DNA of 33,525 nucleotides, from NCBI GenBank assembly GCA_903916735.1, contig CAIWXX010000156.1, forward strand, positions 1 through 33,525, read 5' to 3'. A program made the translations under genes and the position numbers. The stretch comes from an uncultured Acidobacteriota bacterium (GTDB lineage: Bacteria > Acidobacteriota > CAIWXX01). Of the stretch, positions 3,731 through 32,797 are shown in pieces (the stretch's first letter is position 1; every line of letters begins with the position of its first letter). The notes below the pieces were generated by a model. The model did no database searches. It had not been told where the DNA came from and worked only from the letters and a program-made list of their open reading frames with translations.

Positions 3731-4794
3731 CGGTGACGCAAGCAATTTCCCCGGATGAGGGCGGACTTCCGAAAGTTTGTATTGTGATGCTTGCGTACAA
3801 CCAGGAGCGATATATCCCGGAGGCGGTCGACAGCATCCTCATGCAGCAGACGAACTTTCAGTTTGACATTGTCATCAGCGATGATCACTCAACCGACAAG
3901 ACCTATGAAATAGCGGCGAATTATGCCGAGAGACATCCGGAAAAAATTCGACTTGTGAGAACCGACCACAACATCGGTATGATGAAAAATTTGCGGCAGG
4001 CTGTTCGAGTGTGTACGAGCGAGTACATTGCGTTCCTCGAAGCCGACGATTTCTGGACGAATCCTCAAAAATTGCAAAAGCTGGCAGATGCTCTGGATTT
4101 TCACATCACATGGAGTGCGTGCTTTCATTCAGTCACACGGCGGCATGAGGATGGAGAGAGCGAGGAGGACGTGATACCACACATCAACCCCGCTGAACCT
4201 CTTTCCGTATGCGACATGATCAGATCCAATTCGATAGCTACTTGCGGCCTGATGTACCGACGCGCTCTGCTGCCTGACCTGCCTGAGTGGTTTGAACATA
4301 TCGCCATTGCTGATTGGCCCATGCTGATTCTTTTGGCCGAGCGAGGTGCAATCGGCTTTGTGAATGAGCTCATGGCCGTCATGCGAGTTCACAAGGGTAG
4401 CTCGTGGTCGCTCAAGAGTCTGTGGTATCGCAGCCTTCACACCGTCATGATGCTCCAGGCAGTGGATCAACATCTGGATTACAGGCGCCATTCGCTCATC
4501 GTCGGCAGCATCGCCCGGTTGATCCAATCTGCTGCTGTGAATGGTGAGCGCCATGGAAAATCGTATCGTGAGGCCAGGAAATTCTTCATGCAAATTCTTC
4601 GGCTTTCACCCTCAAAAGGCGGCATGCCTTTTTTACGGCGAACGTTATTGGTTGGCCTTATGTATGTCCCGAGATTTTTTTCTGTTCTGTGCTCCAAGGT
4701 TTTTCGCGCACTCTGTGAATTGCATCCGCCTGCTCACGACCGCTTTATTGCGGCGCTGACAAATCTATGCACAAAATGGCAAAAGTTGGGATAG
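3727..4794 (+). CDS. Family 2 glycosyltransferase
   Basis: The 355-residue protein has a GT-A fold N-terminal domain: the opening beta strand Val-Cys-Ile-Val-Met-Leu-Ala-Tyr-Asn, the nucleotide-binding Ser-Asp-Asp-His-Ser-Thr-Asp at 51-57 (Asp52, Asp53), and the metal-binding Glu-Ala-Asp-Asp at 105-108. This is the classic GT2 arrangement. The C-terminal hydrophobic/basic stretch near residues 300-335 may be a membrane-associating segment. The TTG start at 3727 overlaps the preceding stop. A GTG at 3733 is an alternative, and I prefer TTG only because of the coupling. It probably transfers a sugar onto a lipid or glycan acceptor at the inner face of the membrane. It is the last gene of the cassette and converges on the MoeB-like gene. 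Confidence 0.85.
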   Translation: MTVTQAISPDEGGLPKVCIVMLAYNQERYIPEAVDSILMQQTNFQFDIVISDDHSTDKTYEIAANYAERHPEKIRLVRTDHNIGMMKNLRQAVRVCTSEYIAFLEADDFWTNPQKLQKLADALDFHITWSACFHSVTRRHEDGESEEDVIPHINPAEPLSVCDMIRSNSIATCGLMYRRALLPDLPEWFEHIAIADWPMLILLAERGAIGFVNELMAVMRVHKGSSWSLKSLWYRSLHTVMMLQAVDQHLDYRRHSLIVGSIARLIQSAAVNGERHGKSYREARKFFMQILRLSPSKGGMPFLRRTLLVGLMYVPRFFSVLCSKVFRALCELHPPAHDRFIAALTNLCTKWQKLG

Positions 4795-4992
4795 GGCAGA
4801 ATCGTGAATTTCTCTCAAGAAGCCAGGAATAAAGGAATTCAGGAATGACTTATGAACCCACCGCCGGTTGAAATAAAAATCCTTTCCTGCTTTCTTCTCT
4901 TCCTGTATTCCTGAGAGGTTCGGGAGAGATGGTTGTCGAAGCCGGCTTGTTTGGATGCACCGATGCCGCTTTAGGAGCTAAAGTAGTAAATT
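4795..4992. other. Convergent intergenic region with imperfect long dyad
   Basis: This region separates two convergent genes. It has a purine-rich stretch (CTCTCAAGAAGCCAGGAA near 4811) and a partially complementary pyrimidine-rich stretch ending in TTCCTGAGAGG (about 4905-4920). Together they could form a long imperfect hairpin serving as a shared terminator. There is no clean T-run, so it is not called as a terminator. Confidence 0.3.
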
Positions 4993-7550: not shown

Positions 7551-7774
7551 TCCTCACCCTTATCCGCGAGTAAGCAAACGCCTATTGCGACAAAATGGCT
7601 TCGGAGCTTCTACGGCACGGCTCGCGAGGATGCCGAGCCCCACCCTCCGCATATCAAGCATTCCCCTGATCGATGGTTTGGGAGGGCGATGCTCCTGCCG
7701 AGCCGTCATGCCGGGTCTATCGAGACTATCTGATGGCTTGCCGCCATTCCTTATTCGCGGATTTCGGTCCTCAC
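7551..7774 (+). mobile_element. MITE-like element, copy A, with 7-bp target duplication
   Basis: The element spans about 7558-7767 (210 bp). It is flanked on both sides by TCCTCAC (7551-7557 and 7768-7774), which looks like a target-site duplication. Its ends are imperfect inverted repeats: the left end CCTTATCCGCGAGTAAG and the right end read in reverse, CCGAAATCCGCGAATAAG, share the core ATCCGCGA-N-TAAG. It has no transposase frame and would need one supplied in trans. A second copy lies at 32467-32670 in the same orientation. It sits between the DUF202 gene and the OsmC gene, both on the minus strand. Confidence 0.7.
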
Positions 7775-9075: not shown

Positions 9076-9595
9076 TTAGATCACGGAGGTGATTTTCATC
9101 GTGCCACCGCAATTGCAGAGCAAGGGGTCCGATTCGTATACATGCTTAAGAAGGCGAGCCCACGTCTTCCTTCTACTTATAATCCATTCCTCTTCGGGCT
9201 CGGTTGGGGCCTTTCCTGGTAAGGCATCGGCGTGCGAAGTGGATCCACTCTTGGCTTCCTTGCCTCGATGAGCATTGGCGTAGGCTCCAAAATAGTGAGT
9301 GAGCTGCATCCCCTTATCCGGCACGTGCGAGGTGAGACGGGCAATCCAATCGAGATAGTCAAAAGACCGTGAAAAAGGTTCGAAGAGGCCGCCGATGTCG
9401 AGGTCAGGTTGGGTGCCTTTCGCGAAGTATTTCAACTGAGCTCCGTAGCCCATGACGAGCCGGCCCGAGGCTGCCGGCGCACGGATCGTCTACATGCCGA
9501 TCTCGACAATCTCCTTCGCCTCCATCACGGGAGGGCCGATCCACGCATCGAAGCCCGTGTGCTTCCACGAATATCCCTTCTTACTGTTGAATCAA
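9076..9595 (-). pseudogene. Decayed IS91-type (Y2) transposase, C-terminal part
   Basis: The frame 9453-9076 encodes the typical C-terminus of IS91-family rolling-circle transposases: Phe-Asp-Tyr-Leu-Asp-Trp-Ile-Ala-Arg, then His-Val-Pro-Asp-Lys-Gly, Tyr-Ala-Asn-Ala-His-Arg-Gly, and Trp-Ala-Arg-Leu-Leu-Lys with a residual zinc-knuckle Leu-Leu-Cys-Asn-Cys-Gly-Gly. Upstream in the same frame, to about 9595, are Trp-Lys-His-Thr-Gly-Phe and Thr-Ile-Arg-Ala-Pro, interrupted by an in-frame TAG at about 9490. The zinc-knuckle CxxC is reduced to Cys-x-Cys. The N-terminal catalytic part is missing, so the element is dead. No clear IS91 termini were found. Confidence 0.75.
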
Positions 9596-32411: not shown

Positions 32412-32466
32412 ATGAAGGAAATTCTCGTCGACCGTTTGATCCCCCTCCTGGCACTCATTGTCTTAC
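32412..32466 (+). pseudogene. 5' end of a secreted-protein gene cut by MITE-like copy B
   Basis: An ATG with AAGGAGG 11 bases upstream opens a frame for about 18 codons with a typical signal-peptide core (Lys-Glu-Ile-Leu-Val-Asp-Arg then Leu-Ile-Pro-Leu-Leu-Ala-Leu-Ile-Val-Leu). The repeat element begins directly after. The DNA beyond the element does not continue it recognisably, so the gene is lost. The identity of the product is unknown. Confidence 0.5.
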
Positions 32467-32670
32467 CCCTATCCGCGAGTAAGCAGACGCCTATTGAGAC
32501 AAAATGGCTTCGGAGCCTCTGCGGCTCGCGAGGATGCTCACCCTCCCCTCCGTATATCAAGCATTCCCCTGATCGATGGTTTGGGAGGGCGAGGCTCCTG
32601 CCGAGCCGTCATGCCGGGTCTATCGAGACTATCTGATGGCTTGCCGCCATTCCTTATCCGCGGATTTCGG
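32467..32670 (+). mobile_element. MITE-like element, copy B
   Basis: This is a 204-bp near-copy of the element at 7558-7767, in the same orientation. Long identical stretches include the 69 bases from 32584 to 32652 save one change. A six-base net deletion lies in the first half. The ends again form imperfect inverted repeats with the ATCCGCG core. The flanks GTCTTAC and ACTTGGG do not match, so no target duplication is visible here. It interrupts a signal-peptide gene on its left. Confidence 0.7.
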
Positions 32671-32797
32671 ACTTGGGTATCCCGTTGACAAACTGGACGT
32701 GCCCCGGCTCGAAAATGAGGGGCATCCCAAAGGCTCCACCAACCGAGTCGTACGGGGTCACTTCCCACCGAAAACCATACCGCCGGACGCTCCTCAT
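32654..32797 (-). pseudogene. Unknown gene fragment ending in MITE-like copy B
   Basis: A 47-codon minus-strand frame, open further upstream, reads with natural composition (for example Tyr-Gly-Phe-Arg-Trp-Glu-Val and Phe-Gly-Met-Pro-Leu-Ile-Phe-Glu-Pro-Gly). It stops at a TAA supplied by the terminal repeat of the element. I do not recognise the family. It is probably the remains of a gene cut by the insertion or by later rearrangement, but chance cannot be excluded. Confidence 0.3.

Follow-up and report, generated by a model that had tools for sequence, protein, structure and literature searches.

Two near-identical blocks in the genome of an uncultured Acidobacteriota bacterium raise the question of what kind of repeat they represent and what determined the places at which it came to rest. 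Both lie on the + strand of the window, by which we mean the whole 33,525-nucleotide stretch analysed here, and a first-pass annotation had interpreted them as a non-autonomous transposon. The element itself proved to be of a known kind. What appears to be new is its landing at a fixed distance from promoter-like sequence, a spacing of 14–15 bp that the first-pass annotation had missed and that is the most striking feature of the family.

A BLAST search of the entire source genome (G000; 5.37 Mb, 183 contigs) returned 46 matches (best E 1.5e-113). The 19-mer end pattern was found 53 times at up to 3 mismatches versus 0 times for a reversed control pattern, and when each end was searched separately about 50 places per end were recovered, the reversed control again giving none; chance would come nowhere near such counts. 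Pairing of the ends yielded 40 two-ended copies of 112–215 bp; this set excludes a 41st candidate, which measures 259 bp. Most copies are either about 146–152 bp long with a single inner palindrome or about 197–215 bp long with two inverted REP-like palindromes; truncated one-ended copies are present as well. We conclude that the repeat is a genuine non-coding element that was once mobile, and that the genome contains about 40 complete copies of it. Frames across it matched no Pfam family, indicating a short element without a transposase gene of its own, and an Rfam search gave no match. It folds better than shuffled sequences (z −3.1 on the + strand, −1.9 on the − strand), which is expected from its inverted repeats and was not counted as evidence of RNA function. 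Four one-ended copies (L044, L048, L050 and L053) stop about 60–66 bp in, near the same internal point, where the inner palindrome begins. At L060:3598-3628 (G000:C111) a lone 31-bp palindrome, CCGAAATCCGTGCCTAAGCCGCGGATTTCGA, is essentially a single end, i.e. a solo end, and lies 14 bp from a TGGACA promoter-like sequence.

One end type reads CCCCTATCCGCGAGTAAGC and the other CCGAAATCCGCGGATAAGG, with the common core CC-N3-ATCCGCG-N2-TAAG, in keeping with the inverted core already noticed at the ends of both window copies. Terminal inverted repeats, a defining property of MITEs, are common to many copies; those of copy A are imperfect, as had been described, and pair over 20 nt with 5 mismatches. 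Exact target duplications flank 22 of the 40 two-ended copies; 16 of these duplications are 5 bp long and the other 6 are 6 bp long. Copy A had been delimited as 7558–7767 (210 bp) within a 7-bp duplication. The block is there and TCCTCA(C) does stand on both flanks, but the ends of all copies place the start at 7557 (211 bp). Since the element begins with CC(C), the C in seventh place belongs to the element end as well, and the duplication of copy A is the 6-bp TCCTCA (Table 1). Across the family, too, tabulated flanks gave duplications of 5–6 bp, not 7. Such duplications point to staggered strand transfer 5 bp apart, as is established behaviour of DDE transposases. Consistent ends in 40 copies, duplications in 22 of them and the paralogous empty sites described below bear out the reading as a non-autonomous transposon, and the evidence supports classification as a transposon-like MITE; the genome-wide search did not return a family without consistent ends or duplications.

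Table 1. Coordinates of the two MITE copies and associated features in the window.
Feature	Position	Strand	Remarks
MITE copy A	7557..7767	+	211 bp, long form
Left target duplication, copy A	7551..7556		TCCTCA
Right target duplication, copy A	7768..7773		TCCTCA
B-type terminal inverted repeat, copy A	7557..7575	+	CCCTTATCCGCGAGTAAGC; 1 mismatch in end-pattern search
Inner REP-like palindrome 1, copy A	7619..7639		GGCTCGCGAGGATGCCGAGCC; read directly; conserved among copies
Inner REP-like palindrome 2, copy A	7680..7704		GGGAGGGCGATGCTCCTGCCGAGCC
A-type terminal inverted repeat, copy A	7749..7767	-	CCGAAATCCGCGAATAAGG
MITE copy B	32466..32670	+	205 bp; without exact target duplication
B-type end, copy B	32466..32484	+	CCCCTATCCGCGAGTAAGC, exact
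A-type end, copy B	32652..32670	-	CCGAAATCCGCGGATAAGG, exact
TTGACA, putative -35 box	32685..32690	+	exactly 14 bp outside right end of copy B

The first-pass annotation had set the element apart from REP repeats. This holds for the transposon-type ends and duplications but not for the interior, which contains two inverted REP-like palindromes. The peptide EGEAPAEP, noted in a spurious translation of copy B, is indeed encoded there in one frame by the stretch of palindrome 2 and hence reflects the REP-like part, not the transposon. Sequence related to palindrome 2 is also found outside the element, in a second genome (G001). Two further repeats were seen in the window. A member of a different dispersed repeat family, F1/F2 (CCTAACGCGGCATAGCCGC ... 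GATCAGATACTAA; about 235 bp), occupies positions 4760–4976; the 1.17 Mb surveyed contains about 13 such copies, and no target duplication is obvious. Positions 9076–9453 on the − strand resemble the C-terminal region of a transposase of the Y2 (IS91-like) type (E 0.0075, below the Pfam cut-off) and lie within a repeat that recurs in the genome.

Outside the ends, the flanking sequences revealed a second regularity. Read outward from the element end, TTGAC occurs at an offset of 14 bp in 12 and of 15 bp in 6 of 80 flanks (18/80), compared with a mean of 0.10 and a maximum of 2 at the other 108 offsets examined. Some flanks are akin to one another; after removal of such kin, 15 occurrences at 14–15 bp were observed versus 0.17 expected (Poisson p ~1e-24). 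A two-box promoter score (TTGACA-N16-18-TATAAT, threshold ≥8/12) identified 22 flanks at offsets 14–15 versus about 0.5 at other offsets. In 25 flanks with an exact TTGAC, the columns at the distance of a −10 box read TA.TAT, and 12 of these flanks have a −10-like hexamer (≤2 mismatches to TATAAT), versus 22% for TTGAC in intergenic DNA and 10% for TTGAC overall. Several downstream open reading frames begin 6–9 nt past the −10 or behind GGAGG. At 24 of the 40 copies, the element lands with near base-pair precision 14–15 bp upstream of a putative −35 box, the promoter-like sequence lying just downstream on at least one side and pointing away from the element. The remaining 16, copy A among them, have no clear promoter at 14–15 bp. 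The −10 boxes of the putative promoters are often weak; beside copy B, for instance, the outward-pointing promoter has the −10 TCGAAA at spacing 18. The peak does not recur one helical turn farther from the element, where offsets 24–25 gave 0 copies, and 28 flanks of the unrelated F2 family from the same genome, used as a control, gave no peak at 14–15.

Insertion at such sites can be compared with their empty state. Three further loci, C53:147519, C53:135478-135762 and C53:141694-141976, share the flanking sequence of the copy at C45:49679. The last two of them are empty paralogues that align straight across the joined flanks. Read base by base, the empty site at C53:135478 contains the target TTGAC once, not twice, whereas occupied sites have it on both sides; this comparison, run on paralogues within the source genome, thus came out as the transposon reading had predicted. 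The copies at C45:49679 and C53:147519 occupy the identical base pair of paralogous promoters; since they differ in subtype and point in opposite directions, they most plausibly arose by separate insertions. Next to the copy at C90:26458 lies the remnant of an older end, and copy and remnant are equally far, at 15 bp, from one shared −35 box. Two MITE copies (L024 and L035) were also seen inserted at the same spot, 15 bp from TTGAC, within a further repeat family, F4 (GTCAAGCCGGTGCCTCATCAGGAAATTTTGAA; G000:C82:64893, C164:120097, C24:65401, C35:24284 and others).

Among 247 genomes of the phylum, the end pattern occurs in numbers in only two, the source genome (66 exact matches) and G001 (68 exact), the only genome of the same family and a second genus; two further genomes have one match each, which is the level of control patterns. 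The G001 element, present in at least 40 copies of 285–300 bp, has homologous ends and a wholly unrelated interior. Its two ends read CCTGAATCCGCGCGTAAG and CCCAAATCCGCGGCTAAG, and each leads into a near-perfect palindrome of 31–33 nt. An exact 5-bp duplication flanks nine of 14 two-ended copies, TTGAC peaks at offset 14 (8 flanks) and 15 (3 flanks), and 16 flanks reach a promoter score of at least 8 at offsets 14–15. Ends, 5-bp duplication and promoter spacing are common to both genera and the cargo differs, which points to common machinery acting in trans on the elements of both. Among GTDB genomes, the exact 19-mer end had a single match, in Pacificimonas, at chance level, and the palindromic end pattern had no match in viral contigs. 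End palindromes such as those of G001 (L168-L197; CCCAAATCCGCGGCTAAGCCGCGGATTTGGG) are unusual for DDE-type ends.

Profile and end searches of the source genome and G001 did not find a transposase with matching terminal repeats. No gene with the element's ends was seen among the 10 PF01609 and 16 PF01797 loci of the source genome. PF13701, the IS1380-type transposase, had 0 matches in either genome, which speaks against derivation from IS1380. The IS1634 transposase (NF033559) gave 8 matches in the source genome and 3 in G001, partly decayed, and would fit the 5–6 bp duplication. However, at none of these 11 loci was a plausibly placed element end seen with 3 or fewer mismatches, and the largest match in the source genome has the different terminal repeat CTAGCGCATGTTTGCAAA, which speaks against an IS1634 origin. 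A Y1 transposase beside the copy at C182:20230 had looked like a partner but was dismissed, as it lies after a truncated copy and no pair of ends encloses it. End pairs 0.33–8 kb apart and enclosing a gene were absent from about 1.2 Mb plus the fetched loci of these fragmented assemblies, in which breaks at repeats could hide an autonomous copy. One complete insertion sequence was seen at L087 (G000:C127), with an 8-bp target duplication (GTGTGGAC) and a 595-aa transposase paired with a second long frame (287 aa).

We favour, with a probability of roughly three in four, the explanation that a DDE-type transposase moves the MITE in trans and that the target is chosen by the sigma70 promoter. 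The transposase, probably of the DDE class, would recognise the CC-N3-ATCCGCG-N2-TAAG ends of a short non-coding cut-and-paste element and make staggered cuts 5 bp, sometimes 6 bp, apart. These cuts would fall about 9–10 and 14–15 bp upstream of the −35 hexamer, i.e. at about −46 to −50 from the transcription start, the upstream limit of the RNA polymerase footprint, so that the promoter would stay intact and fire away from the element. The spacing was presumably set at insertion, by recognition of the promoter, bound RNA polymerase or sigma region 4, and not by later selection. Even odds seem appropriate for the more specific proposal that target selection is coupled to the promoter through the RNA polymerase holoenzyme or a sigma-region-4-like transposase domain and directs insertion, almost to the base pair, to about −46 to −50, as a bacterial counterpart to the targeting of promoters by yeast Ty elements.

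The transposase might instead respond to TTGAC, or to a somewhat longer motif, irrespective of promoters, −35 boxes being hit as its commonest intergenic occurrence. In favour of this, the signal is strongest in TTGAC itself, and the element is found equally in either orientation. We nevertheless consider this unlikely, because the enrichment of −10-like hexamers at the right spacing moderately favours promoters over bare TTGAC, and some sites combine a good −10 with an imperfect −35 (e.g. TTGATA-16-TATAAG and TTGATT-17-TATATC). Random landing followed by selection, in which copies would be kept as portable regulatory sites with the terminal ATCCGCGGAT palindrome near −60, appears more doubtful still. 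The 14–15 bp gap does centre the end palindrome near −60, where class I activators classically bind and contact with RNA polymerase would be possible. However, a single sharp peak without excess at neighbouring offsets or one helical turn further out, together with reuse of one base pair by two independent insertions, favours targeting over selection, and G001 keeps the spacing although its end sequences differ. Spread as a REP/REPIN-type repeat by a Y1 (RAYT) transposase is highly improbable. It is suggested by the inverted palindromes of the interior, by 16 Y1_Tnp matches in the source genome and by related REP-like stretches that stand alone in G001, yet defined CC...GG ends lie outside the palindromes, the 146-bp form moves without the second palindrome, and G001 elements have the same ends without the REP part. 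The target duplications largely refute such an origin for the whole element.

Several known systems share individual features with the element. Yeast Ty3 and Ty1, retrotransposons guided by Pol III factors, resemble it in their workings only, integrating at fixed positions beside promoters and leaving the host gene unharmed; they have no sequence relation to it. Members of the IS1634 family likewise make 5–6 bp target duplications and have ends beginning with C (ISfinder table), and their transposases are present in both genomes, but no IS1634 copy found bears the element's ends. Tn3 ends begin with GGGG and span 38 bp, unlike the CC-initial ends of about 19 bp seen here. REPINs, to our knowledge, are without the DDE-style ends and target duplications that the whole element has. 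The inverted pair of REP-like palindromes inside it nonetheless recalls REP/REPIN sequences with RAYT (PMC2817692, PMC3116915), and Tn3-derived TIMEs (PMC4133298) share the 5-bp target duplication and the TAAG on the inner edge of the end. Closest in general form are bacterial MITEs such as Chunjie, Correia and MITEAba12, which in the available text of a review (PMC10969869) are described as non-coding elements below 500 bp with terminal inverted repeats and target duplications, in tens of mostly intergenic copies with size variants and truncated copies. That text reports an intergenic and AT-rich preference and promoters inside elements; unlike here, a fixed distance to host promoters is not described in it. 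The open literature offered no precedent for the landing rule in any bacterial element, which is weak evidence given its open-access scope.

Target choice is loose in most bacterial transposons; those that are specific rely on attachment sites, terminators or features of replication. Fixed landing upstream of sigma70 promoters, in two genera and with unrelated cargo, would represent a bacterial safe-harbour strategy. The element would then serve as a natural promoter marker in uncultured genomes, and its transposase, once known, may become a tool for placing DNA beside promoters without disrupting them.
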